From Mycobacterium sp. (GTDB taxonomy: Bacteria > Actinomycetota > Actinomycetes > Mycobacteriales > Mycobacteriaceae): a stretch of DNA of 64,000 nucleotides. The stretch covers positions 1 to 64,000 of the forward strand of contig NZ_PKEK01000079.1 in NCBI RefSeq assembly GCF_002863225.1, given 5' to 3'. Below the pieces are notes generated by a model. That model saw nothing but the letters and a program-made list of their open reading frames with translations. It had not been told where the DNA came from and made no database searches. Below are positions 23,282-38,374 of the stretch, one piece after another. The position numbers were made by a program, and so were the translations under genes. Numbering within the stretch: position 1 is the stretch's first letter; each line of letters starts with the position of its first letter.

Positions 23282-24955
23282 GTGGGGTCGGGGCTGACTG
23301 AGCCAACTCGTGCGCTGAATGCGTCCGCGTTGCGGGACTGGGCGCACACCGCGGTCGGCGACCTCATCACCCACATCGACGAGATCAACCGCCTCAACGT
23401 GTTCCCGGTCGCCGACGCTGACACCGGCGTCAACATGCTGTTCACCATGCGTTCGGCGCTGGCCGAGGCCAACACCGAGGCGAAATCCGCCGACGTGGTC
23501 AAGACCGCGGCGGCCCTCTCCTCGGGCGCGTTGAACGGCGCCCGGGGCAACTCCGGGGTGATCCTGTCGCAGATTCTGCGCGGCATCGCCGACGTCACCG
23601 CCCGGGCGGCTGCCGACTCAGACGGGCACCTGCCCGAAATCGACGCCGCGTTGTTCGGCGCAGCGCTGCACCGCGGGGTCGAACTCGTCGTCGCCTCGAT
23701 GGGCGGTCGTGAGGTCAAGGGCACGATCGTGTCGGTGCTCAAAGCCGCCGGCGAGGCCGTCGACAAGGCTGCCGAGGCCGGGAGTGGGCTGGCGCAGGCT
23801 GTCACCGCCGCCGGTGACGCAGCGGTGGTCGCCCTGGAGAAAACGCCCGACCAGCTCGATGTGCTCGGCGATGCGGGCGTGGTCGATGCCGGCGGCCGTG
23901 GCCTGCTGGTTCTGCTCGACGCGCTGCGCTCGACGCTCACCGGTCAGGCGCCCAGCCGCAAGGTCTACGACCCGGCCCCGCGACGGCAGGCAGTTGAGCT
24001 GCCGGCGCAACCGCCCGCGCCACAATTCGAGGTGATGTACCTGCTGGGCGGGTGCGACGACGAGGGAGCCGACCAGCTGCGTGAGCGCCTGGACGAGCTC
24101 GGCGAATCGGTCGCCATCGCGACGTCCGGTGTCGTCGGGGGCTACTCGGTCCACGTCCATACCGACGACGCCGGCGCGGCGATCGAAGCCGGCCTGGTTT
24201 TCGGGAACCCCCGCCGGATCCAGATCTCGATGCTGACCAGCGGTACCAGTGGATTGCCGCCGGGCAGCTGGACGCGGGAGCGTGCGGTGCTGGCCATGGT
24301 CGACGGTGACGGCGCCGCCGAATTGTTCGCCGACGAAGGCGCCTGCGTGCTGCGGCCCGACCCGCTCGCCGAAGATCCGGCCACGGTCATCACCGCTCAG
24401 CAGCTGTTGCGCGCGGTCGTCGATACCGGGGCGGCGCAGGTCATGGTGCTGCCCAACGGTTACGTACCGGCCGAAGAACTGGTGGCCGGCTGCACCGCAG
24501 CCATCGGCTGGGGCATCGACGTGGTGCCGCTGCCCACCGGCTCGATGGTGCAGGGCCTGGCCGCGCTGGCGGTTCACGAACCGGGCCGCCAAGCCGTCGA
24601 CGACGGCTACACGATGGCCCGGGCAGCGGGCAGTGCCCGGCACGGGGCGGTGCGGGTCGCGACCGAAACCGCGTTGACCTGGGCCGGCGCCTGCGAGCCG
24701 GGCAACGGGCTGGGCGTCGCGGGCGACGAGGTCTTGATCGTGGCTCCCGATGTCGCGGGGGCCGCAACCGGGCTGATCGACCTGTTTCTCGGCGCCGGTG
24801 GTGAGTTGATCACCGTGCTGGCCGGCGATGGCGTGGACGTCGACTCCGTCGAGGCCGCCTTGCGTCGTCACGTCCACGATCACCACCTCGGAATCGAGCT
24901 CGCGATCTACCGCACCGAGCACCGTGGTGACGCGTTGCTGATCGGGGTCGAGTGA
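23282..24955 (+). CDS. DAK2 domain / DegV-like fatty-acid-kinase-type protein
   Basis: INRLNVFPVADADTGVNMLFTMRSALAEA, GARGNSGVILSQILRG; start uncertain (GTG with upstream GGAGG). Confidence 0.9.
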   Translation: MGSGLTEPTRALNASALRDWAHTAVGDLITHIDEINRLNVFPVADADTGVNMLFTMRSALAEANTEAKSADVVKTAAALSSGALNGARGNSGVILSQILRGIADVTARAAADSDGHLPEIDAALFGAALHRGVELVVASMGGREVKGTIVSVLKAAGEAVDKAAEAGSGLAQAVTAAGDAAVVALEKTPDQLDVLGDAGVVDAGGRGLLVLLDALRSTLTGQAPSRKVYDPAPRRQAVELPAQPPAPQFEVMYLLGGCDDEGADQLRERLDELGESVAIATSGVVGGYSVHVHTDDAGAAIEAGLVFGNPRRIQISMLTSGTSGLPPGSWTRERAVLAMVDGDGAAELFADEGACVLRPDPLAEDPATVITAQQLLRAVVDTGAAQVMVLPNGYVPAEELVAGCTAAIGWGIDVVPLPTGSMVQGLAALAVHEPGRQAVDDGYTMARAAGSARHGAVRVATETALTWAGACEPGNGLGVAGDEVLIVAPDVAGAATGLIDLFLGAGGELITVLAGDGVDVDSVEAALRRHVHDHHLGIELAIYRTEHRGDALLIGVE

Positions 24956-24957
24956 CC

Positions 24958-27180
24958 ATGGCATCGCTCACCGACCGCCTGGACTACGTCCTCGGCGCCA
25001 AGGCCGCCGGCCCACTCTACGACGTGTTCGGCATCCGCACTGTCGACGACCTGCTTCGCCACTACCCGCGCAGCTACGTCGTCGGCGCCTCGGTCCGCGG
25101 CACCGATGACGAGCAACCGCCCGAGGGTGAACACGTCACCCTGGTCGACGAAATCACCGACACCGCTTTACTGCCGATCCGAAACCGACCTAAAGACAAG
25201 CTGTTTCGTGTCACTCTGGGATCTGGCCGCGGCAAGGTCACCGCCACGTTCTTTCATCCAAAGAAATGGATCACCGACCAGCTGTCCAAGGGCACCCGCG
25301 TCATGCTGTCCGGGGAAGTCGGCTACTTCCGCAACGCGATGCAGCTCACCCATCCCGACTTTTTGGTGCTCGACAGCGCTGACGGTCGCAACCACGGCAG
25401 CCGGTCGCTGAAGATGATCGCTGAGGCATCGCAGGCGGTGAGCGGGGAAGTGCTGCAGGAAGCCTTCGAACGCACCTTCTACCCGATCTACCCGGCCAGT
25501 GCGAAGCTGCAGAGCTGGGACATTTTCAACTGCGTGCGGCAGGTGCTCGAGGTGCTCGACCCGGTCGCCGACCCGCTACCCGAAAAGCTCTGTGCCGAAC
25601 ACAATTTACTATCCGAAGACGAGGCGCTGCGGGCAATCCACCTCGCCGAGAGCGACGCCGATCGGCGACGAGCGCGTGAGCGGTTGGCCTTCGACGAGGC
25701 AGTCGGCCTGCAATGGGCGCTGGTGAGCCGGCGCCACGGCGAACTCGCGCAGTCCGGGCCGGTGGCGCCCTCCGCGCCCGAAGGCCTCAAACACGAACTG
25801 CTGCATCGCTTGCCGTTCGATCTGACCGCCGGTCAATGTGAGGTGCTCGACGTGCTCTCCGCTGAGCTCGCGGCGAGCCGGCCGATGAACCGGCTCCTCC
25901 AGGGTGAAGTCGGCTCGGGCAAAACCATCGTGTCGGTGTTGGCGATGCTGCAGATGGTCGATGCCGGATACCAGTGTGCGCTTCTTGCGCCCACCGAAGT
26001 ACTTGCCGCGCAACATCTTCGATCGATCAGCGATGTACTGGGATCGCTGGCGATGGGCGGCCAACTCGGCGGACAGGACAATGCCACCAGGCTGGCGTTG
26101 CTGACCGGTTCGATGTCGCAGGCCCAGAAGAAGCAGGTGCGTGCCGAAATCGCCGGCGGTGAGGTCGGCATCGTCGTCGGCACGCACGCCTTGCTACAAG
26201 ACACCGTCGAGTTCCACAAGCTCGGTATGGTGGTCGTCGACGAGCAGCACCGCTTCGGTGTCGAGCAGCGAGACCAGTTGCGGGCCAAAGCGCCTGCCGG
26301 CGTAACGCCGCATCTGCTGGTGATGACCGCGACCCCGATACCGCGGACCGTGGCCCTGACCGTATTCGGCGACCTCGAAACGTCGACGTTGCGCGAGCTG
26401 CCCCGGGGTAGGCAGCCGATCACCACCACCGCGATCTTCGTCAAGGAGAAGCCGGCCTGGCTGGACCGGGCCTGGCATCGGATCATCGAGGAGGTGCGCG
26501 AGGGCCGGCAGGCCTACGTGGTGGCTCCCCGAATCGACGACTCCGACAGCGGCGGTCAGAGCGAGAATGACCAAAGACCCTCGGCGACAGTCGAAGAGCT
26601 CTATGCGCGGCTTGGTCAAGAACAGCTGGCCGGGCTCCGGCTGGGACTCATGCACGGACGGTTGAGCGGTGACGAGAAGGACGCTGTGATGACGGCGTTC
26701 CGCGCCCGCGAAATCGACGTGCTGGTCTGCACCACGGTCATCGAGGTCGGCGTCGACGTTCCCAACGCGACGGTGATGCTGGTGATGGATGCCGACCGCT
26801 TCGGGATCAGCCAGCTGCACCAACTGCGTGGCCGTATCGGGCGGGGCCAGCACGCCAGCATCTGCCTGCTGGCCAGTTGGATGGCCCCGCACTCACGTGC
26901 CGGCCGCCGGCTGACCGCGGTCGCCGGGACGCTGGACGGGTTCGAGCTCGCCGATCTCGATCTGCAGGAACGGCGTGAGGGAGATGTGCTGGGCCGCAGC
27001 CAGTCCGGACGCGCGATCACGCTGCGACTGCTGTCGCTGATCGACCATCGGGAGGTCATCGAAGCGGCCCGCGATTTCTGCGAGCAGGTTTACGACGATT
27101 CACGCGCCCACGCCGGGCTGGCGCTGCTGGCGGCACCGTTCACCGGCAACGAGCGCATCGAGTTCCTGGACAAGTCGTGA
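24958..27180 (+). CDS. recG: ATP-dependent DNA helicase RecG
   Basis: LLQGEVGSGKTIVSVLAML, VVDEQHRFGVEQRDQLRAKAP, QLHQLRGRIGRGQ. Confidence 0.97.
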   Translation: MASLTDRLDYVLGAKAAGPLYDVFGIRTVDDLLRHYPRSYVVGASVRGTDDEQPPEGEHVTLVDEITDTALLPIRNRPKDKLFRVTLGSGRGKVTATFFHPKKWITDQLSKGTRVMLSGEVGYFRNAMQLTHPDFLVLDSADGRNHGSRSLKMIAEASQAVSGEVLQEAFERTFYPIYPASAKLQSWDIFNCVRQVLEVLDPVADPLPEKLCAEHNLLSEDEALRAIHLAESDADRRRARERLAFDEAVGLQWALVSRRHGELAQSGPVAPSAPEGLKHELLHRLPFDLTAGQCEVLDVLSAELAASRPMNRLLQGEVGSGKTIVSVLAMLQMVDAGYQCALLAPTEVLAAQHLRSISDVLGSLAMGGQLGGQDNATRLALLTGSMSQAQKKQVRAEIAGGEVGIVVGTHALLQDTVEFHKLGMVVVDEQHRFGVEQRDQLRAKAPAGVTPHLLVMTATPIPRTVALTVFGDLETSTLRELPRGRQPITTTAIFVKEKPAWLDRAWHRIIEEVREGRQAYVVAPRIDDSDSGGQSENDQRPSATVEELYARLGQEQLAGLRLGLMHGRLSGDEKDAVMTAFRAREIDVLVCTTVIEVGVDVPNATVMLVMDADRFGISQLHQLRGRIGRGQHASICLLASWMAPHSRAGRRLTAVAGTLDGFELADLDLQERREGDVLGRSQSGRAITLRLLSLIDHREVIEAARDFCEQVYDDSRAHAGLALLAAPFTGNERIEFLDKS

Positions 27181-27371
27181 CTGCCGGCGACGATGCGGGT
27201 GGTCCCGAGGAGGAGCGGCGCAGTTGCACCGCCGGCGACGATGCGGGTGGTCCCGAGGAGGAGCGGCGCAGATGCACCGCCGGCGACGATGCGGGTGGTC
27301 CCGAGGAGGAGCGGCGCAGATGCACCGCCGGCGACGATGCGGGTGGTCCCGAGGAGGAGCGGCGCAAGTGA
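27177..27371 (+). repeat. MIRU-like intercistronic tandem repeat, 4 x 48 bp, encoding a 64-aa ORF
   Basis: gccggcgacgatgcgggtggtcccgaggaggagcggcgca at 27183, 27231, 27279, 27327; GTGA overlaps with recG stop and the downstream GTG start. Confidence 0.9.
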
Positions 27372-27712
27372 CCCGCAAACGGTGGCTGTGGCTGTCAGCG
27401 ACTGCGCTTCTCACCGTGCTGGTGGCCTACCAGGCGGTGATCACCTCCACCGGGGACCGCACCCGGGAGTTCGCTGCCCGCGCCGACGTACCGACCGTTC
27501 AGCCCGGCGTCGACGTGCTGGGCGGAATCACCGTGGTGCCGTGGCGGACTCGGCACTACGACTACCGCCGGGCGGCGTTCGGCGACGCCTGGACCGACGA
27601 CAACGACGCCCCCGGTGGTCACAACGGATGCGACACCCGCTTCCTTGGGGGGTTTGACGTGTTGCGTGAGACGTTACAAGAAGTCGGTTTCAAGCAGGGA
27701 ACCCTCCGATGA
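27368..27712 (+). pseudogene. 5' fragment of a secreted HNH endonuclease-family gene (Rv2972c-like), truncated by insertion at ~27640; ORF runs into the element
   Basis: VTRKRWLWLSATALLTVLVAYQAVITS...DNDAPGGHNGCDTR aligns with residues 1-~90 of the intact paralog at 27709, then diverges into FLGGFDVLRETLQEVGFKQGTLR*. Confidence 0.88.
27640..27665 (+). repeat. Left terminal inverted repeat of the insertion
   Basis: CTTCCTTGGGGGGTTTGACGTGTTGC; matches reverse complement of 37904-37928 at both ends of the repeat. Confidence 0.8.
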
Positions 27713-28419
27713 GTCGGGCGAGGCTGGCGTGGTCGGGTGCAGCTGCCGTTCTGGCGGTTGTGGTGGCCGTCCAAACGGTGATCTCGTCGACAGGGCCGTC
27801 GACGTTGATTGCCGGGGCGGATCTACCGACGGTGACTGCTGGCGTCGATGTTCTGGCTGGAGTTCCGGTGGTGCCGGTCCGTGTCCGTCATGGGGACTAT
27901 CGCCGCGCGGCGTTCGGAGAGGCGTGGACTGATGACACCGATGCGCCTGGCGGACATAACCTGTGCGATACGAGGAACGACATCCTCGATCGCGATTTGA
28001 TCGACAAGACCTATGTGGCGATCAGTCGTTGCCCTCGTGCGGTGGCCACGGGTGTTCTGCATGATCCATACACAAGTACGACGGTAAACTTCCAGCGCGG
28101 CAACAAGACTGGTGCGGCCATACAGATCGAGCACATCGTGCCGCTGGCCTATTCATGGGATCAGGGTGCATGGGCATGGCCGGAATCGTTGCGCGTCCGG
28201 TTCGCCAACGATCCCGCCAATCTCCTGGCGGTGCAGGGGCAGGCGAACCAGGACAAGGGCGATAAAGAGCCGGCGTCGTGGATGCCGCCGAACGCCGCGT
28301 TTCACTGCCAGTACGCGATGCAGTTCATCGCGGTGATGCGGGGCTACGGGTTGGCTGTTGATGAACCGTCGGTGCCGGTGTTGCGTGACGCGGCAGCGAC
28401 ATGTCCGAGCAGCCGATGA
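27709..28419 (+). CDS. Intact HNH endonuclease-family protein (GmrSD C-terminal/DUF1524-like), paralog of the interrupted gene
   Basis: N-terminal hydrophobic segment; IEHIVPLAYSWDQGAWAWPESLRVRFANDPANLLAVQGQANQDKGDKEPASWMPP. Confidence 0.88.
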   Translation: MSRARLAWSGAAAVLAVVVAVQTVISSTGPSTLIAGADLPTVTAGVDVLAGVPVVPVRVRHGDYRRAAFGEAWTDDTDAPGGHNLCDTRNDILDRDLIDKTYVAISRCPRAVATGVLHDPYTSTTVNFQRGNKTGAAIQIEHIVPLAYSWDQGAWAWPESLRVRFANDPANLLAVQGQANQDKGDKEPASWMPPNAAFHCQYAMQFIAVMRGYGLAVDEPSVPVLRDAAATCPSSR

Positions 28420-28880
28420 GGGAGGCGTTATTCGGAGTGCGATATGGCCGTGTACTGGACGGTTGGTGAATCGATTTCGGTAGCACGGATCTGCACGGGC
28501 TTCCTCGACCTGCATGCGGGCAATCCGCTCGATGCATTCGGCGAGCCCGGCCAGCGGGACCGGCCACAGATTCGCTGGCGAGGTGTCCTCATCCACCCCC
28601 GAAGGATTTCTCGCCGGCAGCGCCGCGCGTATCGGTGAGCAGAATCGGCTCGCCAGGCACGATGCGACCGCCGCGACCGCCGCGACTCGCAGCTGGTTCG
28701 GCGAAGACAACCGACACGGGCGAACACTCAACCCATGGGATCCCGAGCTCAGCCAGGCGGCTGGTCAGCCACCAGTGGCGATCTGCACGAGAGCCCTGCC
28801 TCAGCCAGAAGCGAAGCCACGATGCAACCAATGCCCAACATTGCTTGAATCAGTGATGGAAACAGTGATTGAATGGCTGA

Positions 28881-29489
28881 GTGCCCACTGAGAGCCTCGC
28901 GAAGTCGCCCGTTCGTGCAAGGCTGATCGATGCAACCGAGGAGCTGCTCCTCACCACGTCGTATGAGGATCTCTCGGTCCGTGCGGTTTGTGCCCGTGCC
29001 GATGCCAACGTCGCGGCAGTGCGGTACCACTTCGGATCGAAGGCCGCGTTGGTCGCGGCAGTCCTCCAGGACCGGCTCGGCCCCCTGTGGACTGACCGGC
29101 TCCGCGATCTGGTGGCAGACGTGGGCAACGTGGACGTTGCCACGTGTGTCGAGGCGATCGTCGCGCCCCTGCGTGGTTTGGCGGCAGACCCGGTCGGTCA
29201 GGTGCGACTCCATTTGTTGACGCGCATCTTGTTCGCTCCCGGGCCACAGCCGTGGACGAATGAGTGGTTCGCACTCAGTCCCTTCGTTGGGCTGGTCCGC
29301 CGTGCGTGTCCGGAGATTGCCGACGATGAGCTCGCACGGCGATGGGTGCTCGCCTTCCGGCTCATCCTGCTCGAGTTCGGCAATCCGATCGTCCGACGTT
29401 CCGCTCCGGCCGAGGACGACGTCAAAGCGATGGTCAGGTTCGTCGTTGCCGGTTTGACTGCCGACAGTAGCGGGGTGCAGGAGCGGTGA
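28881..29489 (+). CDS. TetR/AcrR family transcriptional regulator
   Basis: RARLIDATEELLLTTSYEDLSVRAVCARADANVAAVRYHFGSKAALVAAVL HTH. Confidence 0.92.
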   Translation: MPTESLAKSPVRARLIDATEELLLTTSYEDLSVRAVCARADANVAAVRYHFGSKAALVAAVLQDRLGPLWTDRLRDLVADVGNVDVATCVEAIVAPLRGLAADPVGQVRLHLLTRILFAPGPQPWTNEWFALSPFVGLVRRACPEIADDELARRWVLAFRLILLEFGNPIVRRSAPAEDDVKAMVRFVVAGLTADSSGVQER

Positions 29490-30700
29490 GTGAGGCAACG
29501 AGCCGCGTGGTGAGCCCACCGAGCAGCATCTTCACGTCGGCCGACCTCGGTCCGCTGCGTCTGCGGAACCGCGTGCTGAAGGCGGCGACGTTCGAAGGCA
29601 GAACACCCGACGCAGTGGTCACCGACGAGCTGATCGACTTCCACGTCGCCCACGCCGAGGGTGGGGTGGCTATGACGACCGTGGCCTATTGTGCGGTGTC
29701 CGAGGCAGGGCGCACCGATCGGCACCAGATCTGGATGCGTCCGGAAGCAGTGCCCGGTCTGCGCCGACTGGCCTCGGCGGTGCATGCCACCGGGGCCCTT
29801 GTCTCCGCGCAGATCGGCCACGCCGGCCCGGTCGCCAACGCCGCCTCCAACCGCCTCCCGGCGATCGCACCGTCTCGATTGTTCAGCCCGCTCGGGATGG
29901 CGATTGTTCAGCGACCCGACGCGGGGGGTGTCCGGGCCATCGTTCGCGCGCACGCCGAAGCGGCACGTTACGCCGTGGAAGCCGAGTTCGACGCCGTCGA
30001 GGTGCATTTCGGCCACAACTATCTCGTGAGTGCGTTTATGAGCCCACTGCTCAATCGCCGACGTGACGGCTACGGGGGCGACACTCTGTCGCGCGCTCGC
30101 TTGGCGCGCGAGATCTCCGAGGCGATTCGCCTCGAAGTGGGCGATCAGATAGCGGTCATCGCGAAGCTCAACATGGACGATGGGGTGCCGGGTGGATTGC
30201 GACCCGACGAGAGCATCCGCGTCGCCCAGCTGCTCGAGCAGGACGGTTACCTCGACGCTCTCGAACTGACAGTTGGGAGCTCACTCCTCAACCCGATGTA
30301 CTACTTCCGGGGGGCCGCTCCTCGTCGCGAGATGGCCGCGACCATGCCACCCCCGGTCGGCGCAGGCATGCGCCTGGTGGGGCGCGCCTTCCTTCGTGAG
30401 TACCCCTACGAGCCGATGTATCTGATGGAGACGGCCCGGCGGTTCCGCCGTCAGCTTGCGATGCCCCTGGTCTACCTCGGCGGCGTCACGGACGCTGAAG
30501 GGATGGACGCTGCCCTCGCGGCGGGCTTCGAGTACGTCGCCATGGGGCGGGCGTTGCTCCGCGAGCCGGACCTGCTGCGCCGAATCGCTCGGGACTCGTC
30601 GGTCCGGTCCGCCTGCATCCACTGCAACAAGTGCATGCCGACGATCTTCACGCGCACTCGCTGTCCCTTCATCCCTGTTCAGAGAGATCGACGTGCGTGA
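29486..30700 (+). CDS. NADH:flavin oxidoreductase, Old Yellow Enzyme family
   Basis: FTSADLGPLRLRNRVLKAATFEGRTPD, HFGHNYLVSAFMSPLLNRRRDGYGG, CIHCNKCMPTIFTRTRCP; GTGA overlap with TetR. Confidence 0.92.
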   Translation: MSEATSRVVSPPSSIFTSADLGPLRLRNRVLKAATFEGRTPDAVVTDELIDFHVAHAEGGVAMTTVAYCAVSEAGRTDRHQIWMRPEAVPGLRRLASAVHATGALVSAQIGHAGPVANAASNRLPAIAPSRLFSPLGMAIVQRPDAGGVRAIVRAHAEAARYAVEAEFDAVEVHFGHNYLVSAFMSPLLNRRRDGYGGDTLSRARLAREISEAIRLEVGDQIAVIAKLNMDDGVPGGLRPDESIRVAQLLEQDGYLDALELTVGSSLLNPMYYFRGAAPRREMAATMPPPVGAGMRLVGRAFLREYPYEPMYLMETARRFRRQLAMPLVYLGGVTDAEGMDAALAAGFEYVAMGRALLREPDLLRRIARDSSVRSACIHCNKCMPTIFTRTRCPFIPVQRDRRA

Positions 30701-31520
30701 ACTCACAGGCCGCGTCGCGGTCGTCACCGGCGCAGGCGGGGGGATCGGTCGGGAGGTCGCGCTCGAACTCGCCCGTCGCGGCTGTGCAGTTGCAGTGGTC
30801 GATGTTCGGCGCGAAAGGGCCGAGGCCACTCGAGACCTGTTGCTCGACAGCGGGATCGACGCGTCCGCTCACCTCGTCGACGTCTCGGACGCCGATCAAA
30901 TGGCGGACCTTGTCGGCGAGGTGGTCGCGCACCATGGAGCGGTGCACATCCTCGTCAACAACGCCGGTGTCACGTCGGCGGGTTCCTTCACCAAGGAGTC
31001 GCTCGACGATCTGCGCTGGATCGTGGGCATCAACCTTTGGGGTGTCGTCCACGGCTGCCACGCCTTCCTGCCGGTGCTCCTCGAGCAGGACGAGGCGCAC
31101 ATCGTGAACGTGTCCAGCATGGTGGGCATTCTCGGCCTCCCGCACAACGCGTCGTACGCCATGACCAAGGGAGCGGTCCGGTCGTTCTCGGAGGCGCTGC
31201 GCGGTGAACTGGTCTCCACGGACGTCGGACTCACGACCGTCTTCCCGGGTGCGCATCGCACTGGCATTACCGACACGGCGCGCGGAAGCCACCGGGACCT
31301 CTTGTCCCAGATGGGGTCGTCGCGGATCGCGCCAGTTGCCATGCGATCGCCAGCGCGCCTGGCGCGCCGCATCGTCGATGCCATCGCGAAGGACAAGGCC
31401 CGGGTCGTCGCCGGCCCGGACGCCCACGCCCTTGACCTGTGGGCCCGGGTCGCCCCCGGCCGGACCCGCCTGATCGGCAGGTTCACGGGCCGGATGGAAG
31501 CTAGTGCGTATGGCGACTGA
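30693..31520 (+). CDS. Short-chain dehydrogenase/reductase
   Basis: GRVAVVTGAGGGIGREVALELARRG, NNAG, YAMTKGA; GTG start overlapping OYE 3' end. Confidence 0.92.
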   Translation: MRELTGRVAVVTGAGGGIGREVALELARRGCAVAVVDVRRERAEATRDLLLDSGIDASAHLVDVSDADQMADLVGEVVAHHGAVHILVNNAGVTSAGSFTKESLDDLRWIVGINLWGVVHGCHAFLPVLLEQDEAHIVNVSSMVGILGLPHNASYAMTKGAVRSFSEALRGELVSTDVGLTTVFPGAHRTGITDTARGSHRDLLSQMGSSRIAPVAMRSPARLARRIVDAIAKDKARVVAGPDAHALDLWARVAPGRTRLIGRFTGRMEASAYGD

Positions 31521-31639
31521 TCAAACCCGTGGACCTGGTTCACGGCGAACGAGCGTCGTCCATCGGTGGGTTCAGCCGGGGCTGAGGGTAAGCAGCCCAG
31601 CGATGAATGCCAGCGATGGTGGTTGAACTCGTGCTTTCA

Positions 31640-31755
31640 GTCGCCGATGTCGACGCGGGCCTGGGCCAGCGACCAGAAGCTGTTGATGTTAAGGCATTCG
31701 TAGAGATACGGGAGTTGAACGATTCGACGTAGCCGTTGCGCCACAGTTCGCCCCG
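31640..31755 (-). pseudogene. IS3-family transposase C-terminal remnant, frameshifted
   Basis: Minus strand GELWRNGYVESFNSRIS in one frame and ECLNINSFWSLAQARVDIGD in another match the IS3 OrfB 'WRNGYIESFNSRLRDECLNIN.FWSL.QARV' signature. Confidence 0.75.
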
Positions 31756-32055
31756 GGGGACTAAGTGAATAGCCGATGATGCTGCGCTCGACCATATTGG
31801 ACCAGCGAGCTCGCGTACTCGGAGTGGGTGGTGGCCCGATGTCGACGTTGTACACGTCCACGACCCGCAACACCGTCGCGGTGGTCGCTACGGGTTCGGC
31901 GCGTGCGGAGGAGCCCAGCGGCATCGATTAGATGAGGACGAGCGCGGTCAGGGCCACGGCCGGGAACGCTTCGCCAAGCCAGTCGTGCGGGGCGGCGACA
32001 CTTTGCGGGCGGTTGGAGGCGGCGGGTCCTGGGCGGACCGGTTCGACCGGTCCGG

Positions 32056-32499
32056 TCACGATGCGGGGTCGGGGAACGCCGAGATGGTGGTGACGCGGCC
32101 ACCGGCTGGTTGGTTTTGCCGCAGCCGGTCGTTCTCCAGAGTGAGAACCTGGATGGCACGGGCGAACGTCTCCGCGGTGGCCTTCCACTTGCGGCGTTGG
32201 TCGTTAGCGTCGCCGAGTCGGTGCCGAAGATCCTCGATGTCCGATTTCAGCTGTGCAGCATCGGTTTTGACGGGGTTGTGATGATGGTCGCGTAGCTGGT
32301 AGAAGAGGTCCTTCAACTCGGGGTGCTTGTGTGTCAGGTAGTGGCGTTTGAGCCCCGACTCGGCGGCCACCGCGGTGATGGTGAGATCACCGGCCCGAGC
32401 CGTCGACGGCCGTCCCGACAGGACCCGCACCATGGCGGCCAGCAGCTGCGCCGTCACGTCGCCGGGGGGTGTGGTCGCGGTCGGGTCGGGTGGGGTCAT
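32056..32499 (-). CDS. Small TnpC-like/DUF6262-type coiled-coil protein of the recombinase cluster
   Basis: 147 aa, predicted coiled coil (LKSDIEDLRHRLGDANDQRRKWKATAETFARAIQVLTLENDRLRQ); ATGA overlap with upstream recombinase. Confidence 0.75.
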   Translation of the reverse strand: MTPPDPTATTPPGDVTAQLLAAMVRVLSGRPSTARAGDLTITAVAAESGLKRHYLTHKHPELKDLFYQLRDHHHNPVKTDAAQLKSDIEDLRHRLGDANDQRRKWKATAETFARAIQVLTLENDRLRQNQPAGGRVTTISAFPDPAS

Positions 32500-34622
32500 G
32501 AGGCGGGCTTCCCGAGTGCGGTGGGTTCGGTCGCGCGGAGCGTTACCTCGGCAGAGGTCGCGTCGTGGTGGGCGGCTGCCGCGGCGAACGTGTCGGCGCG
32601 GTGCAGCATCCGCTGCGCCAACGGCTCCGGGGTTGCCGGGCTCGCGGCTTCCCGCCGTAACCGCGCAACTTCCCGCTGCATGTCGGCGACCTGGCGGTCG
32701 GTACGCGCGATGTTCGCACAATGCTCCACGCAGTGATCGAGCCGCGGTTCGGTCGACCTGCTGGTGCGCCCGTGGAGGCAGGCCGCTCGGTTCGGATCGA
32801 ACAGGCAGGTCAGGAACTGCTTGGGGTTGTCGTAGACGCGCAGTCGCGTATCGCGCTTGACGCGGTTGAGGTCTGCGGCGCTGAGGAACGTTCCGCTGAA
32901 CCGGGGCGCGGCGTCGAGGGCGGAGAACAACCGCTGTCCTGCCGGCCCTGAAATGCGCGCGCCGGACGCGACGTCGCCGCGAGTACGTTCGATCGTGTCG
33001 ACGATGGCGGTGAGCTCCTCGCGTTCCATTAGGGCGGCGAAGCCGTCGGTCTTGAGGCCCGCGTACCCCTCGCCTTCGCGCACGGTGAGATGTCCGTATT
33101 GGACGGCCAGCGCGATCTTCCCCTGGGGCAGGCGGCGGATGTGCCAGGCCAACGTTCGACGGAAGCGCCGTAGCGTGACCGCGCCTGCCGGGTCGGGTGG
33201 GATGGCGTAGGCCTGTGGGAGGTGCCGATCGTCGCGCAGCCGATTGGCGGTGTCGATCAGCGCGGTGATCCTCTTGGAGGCGTTCACCGGGTCGAGGATG
33301 GCGTTGCTGTCGCGCATCATCGGGAACAGGGTGTTCTCGTCGGGGTAGACCCGTTCCAGGGTGGCGATCGCAGCGGCGACCGGCTTGATCGTCGCCCATG
33401 TGCGTTGCGCGCCTTCGGGATCGGTGCGTCCGTCGCGTCGTACCCGTTTGTGTTTGCGTCCGCTGACGGTGTACCGCACGGTGCCGTCGAAACGTTCGAC
33501 GCGGCAGCATCCGGGTTTGAGCGCCAGTGCTTCGTGTGGTCGCATTCCGGTCAGGTAGGTGATGATCACCAGGCAGGCCGCGGACAGGGATTTGTGCAAT
33601 GTGGGTAGGTCGGCGTAGTCGATGTGGTCACACCACGGTCTGCCGTCAATGGTGGCGATGATCGGACTGTCGATCGGTTTGGCGGCGTCGAGGTCCAGTG
33701 CGAAGTCGCGCCCGGATGCCTTCAGGGCGTTGGAGATGTCGGAGGGATGGACGTCGCCGTGCATCGCGGCGAGGTATTGGACGTCCCAACAGGGCTGTCC
33801 GTGTTGTAGTCGGGCTGGTAGGGACGTGACGCCGTCGCGGATCCAATCCTGTACTAGAGGAGAAGCTTTCGCGAACCCGGCACGGGTTTCGCATCCGGGT
33901 ATCCGAGCAAGTCGGGTGTTCCACCGCGCGGTGGCTGCGGCGATGTCGTCGGCGAAGTCGAGGAATCGCTGCGCCCACAACAGCAGGGGTGCCATCGTCG
34001 CGGGATGGATGATCCGTGTGGTGTTCTCCCCGCGTCGCTCGCCCCGGCCCAGCAGGTCGGAGATCGGTTCGTCTTCCCAGGGCGGCATGGGTAGCGCGTC
34101 ACCAGGTGGTAGGTGGGGTGCGTGCGCCCACAGCCGTGTCAGGCCGCGTAGCGTCCGCGCGGCGGTGCCCCGGCTGACGCCCTTCTCGCCGAGATGCCGG
34201 ACGAACAGTTCCAGGTCGTCGCGGGTCAGATCGCTCAGTCGTCCGATGCCCCGTTCGTCGACCCAGTGGGCGAATATCAGCCAGTCGTACATCACGGTGG
34301 TACGAATGGTGCTGGCGCTGAACCATTCCACGCCGCTCGAGCCGCTCCTGTCGAGGGTGACTTCCGGCGCCTCGGTGTTGATCAGCAGCCATGCGGCCCG
34401 TCGAAACGACTCCCGCAGTTGTTCGGGGAAGCGGTCCCACGTGAGTAGGCCGGGCTTGACGGCGGCCGGTGCTCCCAGGGGTGCCAGCGGCCAGCGCGAG
34501 TCGGCGAAGTTAGCCACCGCCGCCTCGGATGTGTGGACCCGCTGCGCGATGATCGACGGGTCGCCGGGCGACGGCAGCCGATACGGGGTGGCGGCGAATT
34601 CGGTTTGTGCGGACGCCGTCAT
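32496..34622 (-). CDS. Tyrosine recombinase 3 (TnpB-like, 708 aa)
   Basis: YLTGMRPHEALALKPG, LRRFRRTLAWHIRRL, YGHLTVREGEGYAG; Cys cluster CLFDPNRAACLHGR...DHCVEHCANI. Confidence 0.88.
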   Translation of the reverse strand: MTASAQTEFAATPYRLPSPGDPSIIAQRVHTSEAAVANFADSRWPLAPLGAPAAVKPGLLTWDRFPEQLRESFRRAAWLLINTEAPEVTLDRSGSSGVEWFSASTIRTTVMYDWLIFAHWVDERGIGRLSDLTRDDLELFVRHLGEKGVSRGTAARTLRGLTRLWAHAPHLPPGDALPMPPWEDEPISDLLGRGERRGENTTRIIHPATMAPLLLWAQRFLDFADDIAAATARWNTRLARIPGCETRAGFAKASPLVQDWIRDGVTSLPARLQHGQPCWDVQYLAAMHGDVHPSDISNALKASGRDFALDLDAAKPIDSPIIATIDGRPWCDHIDYADLPTLHKSLSAACLVIITYLTGMRPHEALALKPGCCRVERFDGTVRYTVSGRKHKRVRRDGRTDPEGAQRTWATIKPVAAAIATLERVYPDENTLFPMMRDSNAILDPVNASKRITALIDTANRLRDDRHLPQAYAIPPDPAGAVTLRRFRRTLAWHIRRLPQGKIALAVQYGHLTVREGEGYAGLKTDGFAALMEREELTAIVDTIERTRGDVASGARISGPAGQRLFSALDAAPRFSGTFLSAADLNRVKRDTRLRVYDNPKQFLTCLFDPNRAACLHGRTSRSTEPRLDHCVEHCANIARTDRQVADMQREVARLRREAASPATPEPLAQRMLHRADTFAAAAAHHDATSAEVTLRATEPTALGKPAS

Positions 34623-36340
34623 GCCGACAGCTCACCGTCGAGGAGTCGACCGACCAGTTCGCGTTCCGCGTCGGTGGCGGCGGCTATCGCGTGGGCACGT
34701 TCGGCGTCGGTGCTGTGGTGGTCGAGCACGTCGCAGAGACGCTGGTGATGAAGCTGCCACCGCTGTCGCCATTCCGTCTCGGACAATGCGCTGCGGAGTT
34801 CTTCGAGGGCGGCGTGCAGGACGACCAGTCGGCCCAGGTGTCGCGGCGTCGCGATGGCGTTGGCGCATCCCAGGCAGGCGAGGAACGAGTCGGTGCACAG
34901 GGCATAGGTGCCGGGGTGGTGCTGGAAGTCGGAGCAGGCCGCGATGACGGTGTCGGCGAGCCCGGAGCGGATGCGCTCGTCCACCGCGTTCTCGGCGACG
35001 ATGCGCAGCTGAACGTAGTTCTCGGCGGTGCTCAGCGCGTTGGTCAGACCCGTCTCGATGATGGGGCGGGATTCGTCGCGGGTCGCGGAGTCGTTGAGGA
35101 CATAGGCGTCGTCGTGGACGTTGCGGCTGTTCTGGGTGGGTGTGCGATCGAAGATGACCTGGCGGGTGCGGCGCAGTCGTTGCAGCGAGATGGGACCACA
35201 CGGCGCCCACGTCGAAAGCCGCCGGACGGTGCCGTTGGGGGTGCCTAACGCGAATCGGTCGTCGGCGGTGTACCCCTTGTGGCGGGCGTAGATGAGAAGC
35301 CGGTCTGTTGGCTCGTCGATGGACGCCAGGACGTCGCGAGCCGGTTCGGTGGCGGCGATGACCCACTTGAGTGCTCGTCCGGTCTCACCGCCGGGTTCGA
35401 CGACCTCCGTGGTGGTGCTGTGGCGGTAGCTTCCACGGCGAGGCTTGTCGATCCTGATGGTGAACACGTCCACACCGTCGGCGACGCCGGCGACGTTGTC
35501 GGGCACCGCGAGTTCATCGACGACCGACGGATTCCATCCCGCTTCGGCGGTGAGCAGGACCGCGCACGCCCAGGCCTCGTGCGGTGTCAGGAAGAGGTGA
35601 TCCTGTGCGGCCCGCGCGGACACCCCCCGTGGTCGACTCGCCCCGAGGTCGCGGCAGGCCGACTCCGACACCCGCATGCCGAGATCGGCGACCTGGGCGA
35701 GGGCAAGGGCGATGCGCGTCTGGGGAGCAGTGAGATCCTGTCCGCCGCGATAGCGGGCGAGAAGTTCGGCATTGGCGTCGATTCTTCGTGCCGCGCGGTG
35801 CACGACTTGTCGCGACGCTCGTCGGATCTGGCGGAACTCCTCGTGGGTGTAGGAGGTCTGCAAGCGTGGTTCGGGTTTCCCGGTGCGTCGCGACAACACC
35901 GCGGTCAAGGATGCCGACAGGTTTCCGGCGGCGCGGAGTACATTGCGCACGTTGCGGATCCGGGCGGCACCGGCACTGGTGGTCGCTCCGCCGTTGCGCA
36001 GAATCCATCGGTTCCACACTCCGCCGTCGATGGCTGCCACCGAGTCCGGTCGCAGATCTTCGCTTTCCAGCCAGCGGAGAAAGAATGCGATCGTGTCGTA
36101 ATGAGCCAGAGCGGTTTCCGCTGATCGCCATCGGCCGCGCGGACCGTTCAAGTAGGCCATGGCGGTGATGAGTTCCAGGCGCAGCTGGTGTGTGCCAGGC
36201 AACTTGACCAGGCTGACCAGGGCCTGTCGAGTGCCCGACTCGTTGGACGCCACGAACGACAGATGCTCCACTTCGACGGTGCTGGTGCTGTCGAAGTCGC
36301 TCGGCGGCAGCAGCTCGCTGCGGGTGAGTCGCCTAGCCAT
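34619..36340 (-). CDS. Tyrosine recombinase 2
   Basis: LGMRVSESACRDLGASRP, LQRLRRTRQVIFDR; C-terminal CTDSFLACLGCANAIATPRHLGRL; ATGA overlap with recombinase 3; start at MARRLTRSELL overlapping the upstream TAG. Confidence 0.85.
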   Translation of the reverse strand: MARRLTRSELLPPSDFDSTSTVEVEHLSFVASNESGTRQALVSLVKLPGTHQLRLELITAMAYLNGPRGRWRSAETALAHYDTIAFFLRWLESEDLRPDSVAAIDGGVWNRWILRNGGATTSAGAARIRNVRNVLRAAGNLSASLTAVLSRRTGKPEPRLQTSYTHEEFRQIRRASRQVVHRAARRIDANAELLARYRGGQDLTAPQTRIALALAQVADLGMRVSESACRDLGASRPRGVSARAAQDHLFLTPHEAWACAVLLTAEAGWNPSVVDELAVPDNVAGVADGVDVFTIRIDKPRRGSYRHSTTTEVVEPGGETGRALKWVIAATEPARDVLASIDEPTDRLLIYARHKGYTADDRFALGTPNGTVRRLSTWAPCGPISLQRLRRTRQVIFDRTPTQNSRNVHDDAYVLNDSATRDESRPIIETGLTNALSTAENYVQLRIVAENAVDERIRSGLADTVIAACSDFQHHPGTYALCTDSFLACLGCANAIATPRHLGRLVVLHAALEELRSALSETEWRQRWQLHHQRLCDVLDHHSTDAERAHAIAAATDAERELVGRLLDGELSA

Positions 36341-37915
36341 TGCCGGCCTGGGTGACGTCGAGGACACGCGGGTCAAGCGAGGCCAGCCCGGCGAGTGCCC
36401 GTTGCAGATCGGCGTGGCCGATCAGCGAACGGAGCCGCACACCGTTCAACGGTGCGAGATAACGCTCCCTGGTTGTGGCTTCGTGACGATGGCCCAGCAG
36501 GTCGCGTACGGTTTCCCAGGCCATCCGGTAGCGCTCTTCGTGGTATCCGGTGCTGCCCGTGCTGCCGTTCTGGACGTCGATGGCCCGATGCAGCGCAATG
36601 AGCATGTAGAGGGCGAACGAATGTCGCAGGCTGTGTGGGCTCAGACGCGGCGCCCGCGATCCCGGTTTCACGACGCCGCCGGGGCGAATCTCTTTGAACG
36701 CATCGAACACTCGATCATTGGCATCGCTCATGACGTCGGTCCACGCCGACACCGGCAGGGGCATGCCGGCTTCCGATAGCCACAACCACAGGGGCTCCGG
36801 CCCGTCGCCGGTGTCGAGGAGCAATCTCCGACGGTCGGCGATGTCGATGTCGTCGGGGCGCCGCCATCGGCCCGAATACTTCAGTTTCACGCCGTCGGCG
36901 GTCAGACGGGTGTCCGTGACCAGGATCCGGTCGGCGTTCTCGTAGCGCTTGTGGTGTTTGGCTCGGTCGACGGACACTCGTCTCGTCGTCGTCATGTAGC
37001 TGTTGACGATGGCCAACGCGTCGTTGAAGAGATACCAGGTGCGTGGGTGGCGGCCCTTGGCGACCGCGGCGGCTAGACGGGCTTCGTTCAGGCCGACGTC
37101 GTGTCGGTCGCAGGATGGGAGTTCGAGTGTCAACAGTGAGGCACCTTCGGTGATGCGCAGCCCGGACGAGAACAGCATCTCCATCATCGCTTTGTTGCGC
37201 AGCGCATTTCGTCCCTTGAACGAGGTACCTCGTAGGTCGTCGAGTGTGTAGCCCTCGATACCGACTTGGCGCCAGAGGCGAAATGTTCGCGGCGTCACCC
37301 ACTTGACCCGCTCGGCGACGACGTTGCGGGACCGCACCGGCACACCGTTCCGGTGGCCCGATCCCGACCGAGCGGACCGAGTGATTCACGCTCGACGGGA
37401 TTGAACTCGACGTGTCCTCTGGTGCGGTGCGACGCCCACCGATAGAGCAGGGAGATGGCGGCCAGCTCGCGGTTGGCCTTCGACCCGCTGACGGAATGCT
37501 CGTTGAGGTCGCTGCGTGAGCGCCACTACCAGTACGTGTTGACGTCTTGAGGAGACGCCTCTGACCAGCCTTTCCCGCGAGTGTCTAGATATTCCAGCCA
37601 CATTCGCAGATCGGCTGCATACGATTTCTTCGTCGACGAGCTCAGTCGTGCGAAGTGGGGAGACACGACAAACTCGCAAAGGCGCGGATCGCAGCTGCCG
37701 TCCGGAGCGATCAATACCGGCGTATCCCGGCCGATACCGAGTGCACGCTCTCTCTCGCCGAGGTCATCGAGTTCTGCCAATACTGGGTGAAAGGCCGGGT
37801 CCGGTAGAGCGCCCCCCGACCAGGTCAACAACCACTCCCTCGCATCAGCCTCGGGTCGTTGCACGGATCGAACACTATGGGTATCGCGCCACAAAACAGT
37901 GATGCAACACGCCAA
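36333..37915 (-). pseudogene. Tyrosine recombinase 1, disrupted: N-terminal core-binding part (37526-37915) and catalytic part (36333-37343) separated by a TAG and a frameshift
   Basis: Catalytic motifs SSGLRITEGASLL, PHSLRHSFALYML, LLGHRHEATTRERYL; N-terminal STKKSYAADLRMWLEYLDTRGKGWSEASPQDVNTYW*WRSRSD...KANRELAAISLLYRWASHR continues past the TAG in the same frame. Confidence 0.75.
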
Positions 37916-37928
37916 AATCCTGAGGAAG
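37904..37928 (-). repeat. Right terminal inverted repeat of the insertion
   Basis: Reverse complement reads CTTCCTCAGGATTTTGGCGTGTTGC. Confidence 0.8.
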
Positions 37929-37930
37929 TC

Positions 37931-38374
37931 AGGAACGACATCCTCAATCGCGACCTGGTCGACAAGACCTTGATCGCGACCAAACGCTGTCCCGACGCGG
38001 TCTCAACGGGCACCTTGCACGACCCGTATATCAACGCCACCATCATCTTTCACCGCGGCCCCAAGGTCGGCGAGGCGGTGCAGATCGACCACATCGTGCC
38101 GTTGGCGCTGGCCTGGGACATGGGAGCCTACGACTGGCCCGACGCGCAACGAATCCGGTTCGCCAACGATCCAGCGAATCTCCTTGCCGTACAAGGACAA
38201 GCCAACCAGGACAAGAGCGACTCCCAGCCCGCACTGTGGATGCCGCCCAACGCCGCGTTCCACTGCCAATACGCGATGCAGTTCATCGCGGTGTCCCGGG
38301 GCTACGGGTTGCCGATCGATCTGGTCTCGAGCAATGTGCTGCGTCAGGCCGCCGGCACCTGCCCGGCCGGATGA
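37931..38374 (+). pseudogene. 3' fragment of the interrupted HNH endonuclease-family gene
   Basis: RNDILNRDLVDKTLIATKRCPDAVSTGTLHDPYINATIIFHRGPKVGEAVQIDHIVPLALAWDMGAYDWPDAQRIRFANDPANLLAVQGQANQDK picks up where the 5' fragment stops. Confidence 0.9.

Follow-up and report, generated by a model that had tools for sequence, protein, structure and literature searches.

A mycobacterial genomic island that appears to supply a replacement for the gene it interrupts

In a 64,000-nucleotide stretch of Mycobacterium sp. (GCF_002863225.1, contig NZ_PKEK01000079.1, positions 1-64,000; hereafter the window), a site-specific genomic island splits an HNH-family gene next to recG and brings a full-length paralog of that gene at its left end. 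On sequence comparisons, we interpret this arrangement as target-gene replacement ("break and rescue") by a site-specific element, a strategy that would have evolved more than once; we put the probability of this reading at roughly three in four. A preliminary description of the same DNA had proposed that the element breaks a conserved gene and supplies its own version. That proposal is supported here because the arrangement recurs with two recombinase types at two sites of one gene, the carried copy is apparently coupled to the broken frame, its insertion core is recoded, it evolves under purifying selection, and in M. brisbanense it has replaced the resident gene. We lean slightly towards a more specific version, namely that two element types independently carry a full target copy which is frame-coupled and, in one lineage, recoded at the cut site so that it is no longer a target.

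The element, its target and the carried copy

The element spans 27641-37927 and splits the recG-linked HNH gene after the codons for CDTR. Its left end begins at 27641 (TTCCTTGGGGGG...) and its right end closes at 37927 (...CCTGAGGAA). The features around the split gene are:

27368-27640, plus strand: resident HNH gene, 5' part, residues 1-89, ending in GCDTR (from comparison with locus L125, below)
27641-27708, plus strand: element left end, terminal repeat TTCCTTGGGGGGTTTGACGTGTTG and a linker; the resident frame stays open until the TGA at 27710-27712, which overlaps the cargo ATG
27709-28419, plus strand: cargo HNH paralog, full length, with the insertion-site core recoded (GAT ACG AGG)
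37900-37927, minus strand: element right end, reverse complement TTCCTCAGGATTTTGGCGTGTTG, an imperfect inverted repeat of the left end
37928-37933, plus strand: six-base core at the right junction, GTCAGG
37934-38374, plus strand: resident HNH gene, 3' part, from NDIL... to the stop (from the open reading frame, ORF, and comparison with L125)

The gene is uninterrupted in Mycobacterium sp. 1245111.1 (L125), a relative with 91% RecG identity to the window, and window positions 27640 and 37935 fall on its near-adjacent bases 10273 and 10275. In a BLAST match, resident residues 83-234 correspond to 37913-38368, the true resident portion beginning at 37934. The junction cores are unlike each other, ACCCGC on the left and GTCAGG on the right. 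Relatives of the HNH gene occur in 390 of the 397 genomes of the genus that formed our survey set, and downstream of the resident 3' part in the window lies an aldo/keto reductase gene. The order recG-HNH-aldo/keto reductase matches that of Rv2973c-Rv2972c-Rv2971 in M. tuberculosis, by table names (PMC11329110). Distribution and gene order identify the target as an ancestral, recG-linked core gene.

The cargo ORF (236 amino acids) is intact, and its ATG lies 44 nucleotides past the 24-base left motif, which confirms that a full-length HNH gene sits just inside the left repeat. Its product is 69% identical to the resident protein, as expected for the homologous but well-diverged paralog seen earlier; this value, together with the transfer pattern described below, leads us to reject a recent tandem duplication. 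The preliminary description had regarded a tandem HNH pair in relatives lacking the element as contrary to its proposal, and no such pair was seen among the genomes examined.

Insertions at two sites with two recombinase types

Insertions into the resident gene fall at two sites. Site A (CDTR/ND) is occupied at the same codon in the window, M. wolinskyi, NAZ190054, M. brisbanense and GA-1841, and site B (QIDH/IV, inside the HNH motif) in M. canariasense, Mycobacterium sp. 141, sp. J2 and M. arosiense. The site-B elements carry a different recombinase set, composed of a recombinase and a DUF6262 protein (in M. canariasense, Phage_integrase, E 2.5e-14, and DUF6262, E 6.9e-9), and the B-type element on plasmid pMYC1 of M. 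adipatum has consecutive genes for two tyrosine-type recombinases and a DUF6262 protein. This layout of two tyrosine recombinases and a small third protein marks the site-B element, at the level of sequence, as Tn554-like. The insertions in NAZ190054, J2, M. arosiense and GA-1841 were each read across two contigs; an assembly artefact is rejected, as M. wolinskyi, M. canariasense and sp. 141 each show the same arrangement within one contig.

An intact HNH paralog, oriented as the broken gene, stands at the left end in seven of the nine resident-gene insertions. The remaining two are M. arosiense, which restores the gene as a chimera, and GA-1841, where the left end of the element adjoins other cargo. 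Two generalizations considered earlier are therefore rejected: the paralog is not always present at the left end (GA-1841 has none), and insertions are not limited to a single codon region, since the same gene has a second site. It had further been argued that the same element in unrelated places without the paralog would speak against replacement. A-type left ends do occur at other loci, in M. vinylchloridicum and M. rhodesiae JS60, where the resident genes are intact, but the HNH copy is still present there; a B-type left end with an HNH copy is likewise found off-locus on pMYC1.

The cargo start overlaps the stop of the broken frame

Wherever a resident-gene insertion carries cargo (seven cases), the host frame that it interrupts runs on through the left end of the element, and the first stop of that frame overlaps the cargo start, as ATGA or GTGA in type A and as TGATG in type B. 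Native recG-HNH junctions overlap likewise (ATGA/GTGA). In the window, the left end extends the interrupted frame by about 23 codons, ending on the cargo start codon. Shuffled left ends of the three left-end lineages, taken singly, reproduced the overlap at frequencies of 0.115, 0.012 and 0.113; the product gives a joint chance of about 2 in 10,000 if the three lineages are independent. Translation of the cargo copy is probably coupled to that of the broken gene, as far as the reading frames can indicate.

Movement, origin and fate of the copies

Between the window and M. wolinskyi, RecG is 70% and the resident HNH protein 64% identical, and the cargo HNH protein 99%; for M. canariasense and J2 the corresponding values are 97%, 95% and 75%. 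These identities indicate that the cargo copy moves between species along with the element. In the protein tree, the A-type cargo and the cargo of M. canariasense and sp. 141 form one clade beside the resident gene of GA-1841, and the cargo of J2 and M. adipatum is placed among other resident genes; the clade that includes the A-type cargo thus spans both insertion sites and both recombinase types. That all cargo copies go back to one origin is disfavoured (0 of 200 bootstrap trees; approximately unbiased (AU) test borderline, p = 0.056), and two origins are likely. As for the source, no phage match exceeded 60% identity, and a plasmid source is rejected, the one close plasmid copy, on M. adipatum pMYC1, being itself the B-type element. 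The dN/dS ratios of the cargo copies, 0.02-0.14 within the A lineage and 0.107 for J2 versus M. adipatum, indicate purifying selection.

The resident gene has met different fates. In M. brisbanense its 5' part is internally deleted and the cargo is intact, and neither the resident 3' part nor a recombinase was found at the locus; judging from what is left, the cargo copy has replaced the decayed resident gene. The intact gene of M. arosiense is a chimera of a resident N-terminus and an element-type C-terminus, with the native 3' end displaced: before the core it is closest to M. bohemicum (81%), its C-terminal part is up to 86% identical to cargo and rapid-grower genes versus 76% to M. bohemicum, a species with which the displaced 3' end shares 90% identity. 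The left-end-like sequence TTATCCGGGG follows the chimeric HNH stop, with the native 3' end on the far side of the right end (L172:6220-6460, L173:1-260). M. arosiense may represent a different way of restoring the target, through 3'-end restoration or later recombination.

The chimera bears on a mechanistic alternative, in which elements residing in this gene acquire HNH copies from nearby, either through homologous recombination or when excision is imprecise, and carry them as passengers. Host HNH sequence has probably been taken up more than once, and M. arosiense does fuse resident and element HNH sequence, both in line with such capture. However, the copy has the same orientation, the same end and the same stop/start overlap in all seven cargo-bearing resident insertions of two element types, it is the one cargo common to otherwise different elements, and it evolves under purifying selection. 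We consider capture unlikely as the main explanation.

Properties of the carried HNH protein

The cargo ORF matches GmrSD_C (E 4.9e-17) and HNH_4 (E 1.5e-6), and the cargo copies keep the family-invariant residues H142, N167, N171, N180 and K183 of a 22-sequence alignment. The HNH product has an N-terminal membrane helix, and its predicted fold (mean pLDDT 83) is nearest to the periplasmic endonuclease Vvn, a weak match (E 0.03); a PDB sequence search gave nothing of use. Membrane helix, domain matches and model suggest an exported nuclease. Both the HNH/GmrSD_C domain and the resemblance to Vvn would also suit an effector, that is, a homing-like or anti-competitor nuclease which is like the target by ancestry only, a possibility raised in the preliminary description to explain target choice. 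Several observations speak against it. The membrane helix points to a place of action beyond the cytoplasm, relatives in 390 of 397 genomes mark the family as an ancestral core gene, a single cargo clade has members at both sites and in elements of either recombinase type, and PADLOC and PHROG searches with the cargo HNH protein gave no match. An effector role is accordingly disfavoured and appears improbable.

Recoding of the insertion core

The native site-A core reads GAC ACC CGC, and its Arg codon is always CGN in 54 resident genes (AGR in 0 of 54). The sequence is GAT ACG AGG/AGA in all seven A-lineage cargo genes, among them the copy that M. canariasense has in its type-B element; the encoded residues are the same, and in each of the seven the recoded core is the least or second-least host-like three-codon stretch of its gene (rank 1 or 2 of ~70). 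A pattern scan of 357 genomes listed about 150 matches, paralogs and cargo included, and among the matches listed AGR occurred in two: the cargo of M. brisbanense and, in genome G036, a distant paralog. This G036 paralog (~48%, L209:5937-6833) shares the rare ACG AGG at the site-A motif, with no recombinase close by. CAT ATA stands at the site-B core of the restored M. arosiense gene; none of 44 resident genes uses ATA there, and the pair of codons ranks 3 of 93. This chimera excepted, site-B recoding was not found in B-type cargo: no clear recoding is seen in the genes of sp. 141, J2 and M. adipatum. Work on GInts supports the view that integration falls when cores are mismatched, attI/attB identity having a tenfold effect there (PMC5385486). 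The site-A recoding could alternatively be the footprint of an earlier insertion and excision.

That the recoded copy mainly shuts the locus to rival or sister elements, rescue being secondary, would fit the rewritten site-A core of the A lineage and the contention of two element types for one gene, but the B-type copies lack a clear rewriting of site B, and neither coupling nor purifying selection would be needed, so that we regard this reading as very improbable.

A model for target-gene replacement and points against it

The element inserts at the conserved C-D-T-R/N-D codons of the putative exported HNH-nuclease gene and brings a complete substitute. In the replacement model, ribosomes translating the broken gene would terminate and then re-initiate on the cargo copy, so the cell would keep its nuclease and the cost of insertion would be small. 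The element's own recombinase would find a poor target in the cargo copy because of the rewritten core. Over time the resident fragments would decay, and the cargo copy would end as the sole gene. A second, Tn554-like element type has reached the same arrangement at another codon of the HNH gene.

Several points weigh against this model. Rescue is evidently not required, because the related element of GA-1841, at the same site-A codon, has no HNH copy, and none was found in that genome. The HNH gene is non-essential in M. bovis BCG, where mutants of the homologue Rv2972c are recoverable (PMC11329110). The site-A recoding is one ancestral event, and chance is not negligible for it, because 4 of the 54 resident genes have the site-A stretch among their least typical 4%. 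Finally, the two-origin reading of the cargo is favoured yet not decisive at an AU p of 0.056.

The motifs into which these elements insert are the most conserved ones of their core-gene target. If target-gene replacement holds, a coupled, target-proof copy would offset the damage, which would account for the tolerance of an insertion within an active-site motif. An invader's allele could in this way become the species' own gene, providing a route for the horizontal replacement of core genes.

Recombination genes, variable cargo and neighbouring sequences

The other features of the element and its surroundings in the window are:

32056-32499, minus strand: small fourth recombination gene, TnpD/GinD-like by position and size, 147 amino acids, no Pfam family
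32496-34622, minus strand: large tyrosine recombinase, TnpC-like, 708 amino acids
34619-36340, minus strand: second recombinase-like gene, TnpB-like, 573 amino acids, no family match
36333-37915, minus strand: first tyrosine recombinase, TnpA-like, reading frame disrupted (one stop, one frameshift)
28881-31520, plus strand: variable cargo (TetR regulator, FMN oxidoreductase, short-chain dehydrogenase), absent from the M. wolinskyi element
24952-27180, plus strand: recG (ORF), upstream neighbour of the target gene; the recG-HNH-aldo/keto reductase order is kept in most relatives examined

The four overlapping minus-strand genes (37915-32056, TnpA to TnpD) lie at one end of the island, and M. 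wolinskyi and GA-1841 share their order. For TnpA the match is to Phage_integrase (E 1.7e-8) and for TnpC to the phrog_1 integrase alone (E 3e-6); TnpB had no match in the domain and family searches. The window copy of the element is probably immobile, because its TnpA has a stop and a frameshift in a stretch where M. wolinskyi, NAZ190054 and GA-1841 keep an open frame. The M. wolinskyi copy, with its TnpB split over two frames (L078:14386-16103), may be immobile too. Between the window and M. wolinskyi, two blocks are conserved at ~93%, one containing the left end and HNH copy, the other the recombinases and right end, and the left block stops about 10 bases past the HNH stop. The HNH copy belongs to the element backbone, because it is conserved with the left end while the middle cargo differs. 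Judged by gene content and ends, the element is a genomic island of the GInt/SE/Tn554 kind that uses tyrosine recombinases and a specific insertion site.

Possible defence cargo lies next to the left end of the GA-1841 element (L174:10860-17297): a 1256-amino-acid ORF that on visual inspection resembles a restriction enzyme, together with genes for an SNase-like protein and for a GajB-like UvrD helicase. The B-type element of M. adipatum pMYC1 (L210:3512-22658) bears sulfur-metabolism genes (sulfite oxidase, rhodanese, MBL-fold, TauE/SafE exporters). An exact solitary site-A left-end motif in genome G084 (L168:5985-6008) has no recombinase or HNH gene across the 20 kb read, which suggests chance or a relic. 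Far from recG, the M. wolinskyi genome has one more HNH copy (L088:9720-10424), which evolves fast and has no recognisable element end in its vicinity. Four tandem 48-bp repeats lie between recG and the resident HNH gene in the window (27180-27371), where the usual recG-HNH stop/start overlap is lost.

Comparison with known systems

Site-specific elements usually spare their host by inserting at gene ends or by restoring the gene end, and some prophages and integrative and conjugative elements restore the 3' end of the target gene, so that insertion preserves target function. The M. arosiense case resembles such 3'-end restoration; unlike those elements, the mycobacterial islands mostly supply a whole, separately translated gene.

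Target-gene-like cargo itself has its closest precedent in Tn552-II, a Tn554-related transposon of Staphylococcus aureus whose tgl is homologous to the interrupted gene and for which the authors suggest a rescue role (PMC12486829). The mycobacterial elements share with it tyrosine recombinases, a brought-in att core and a carried gene resembling the target. However, tgl retains a copy of att (PMC12486829), and the mycobacterial cargo core is recoded. The host phylum and the target gene also differ, and the mycobacterial copy is apparently coupled to the broken frame, occurs in two element types at two sites and has replaced the resident gene in one species.

The four-gene operon at one end, with three recombinase genes and a small protein, resembles ginABCD of the GInts, as do the variable cargo, the imperfect direct repeats at the junctions, the strong site specificity and the exchange between species (PMC5385486). 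In the parts of that report consulted, GInts preserve target function by gene-end insertion or an outward promoter, without a carried target copy, and neither Actinobacteria nor Mycobacterium is mentioned. SEs, reported from Gammaproteobacteria, likewise have four recombination genes and a 6-bp core; the terms sought for target-gene copies were absent from that paper (PMC10214605). In breaking a gene and carrying a version of it that would escape the same cut, the proposed break-and-rescue strategy resembles the design of synthetic cleave-and-rescue drives.
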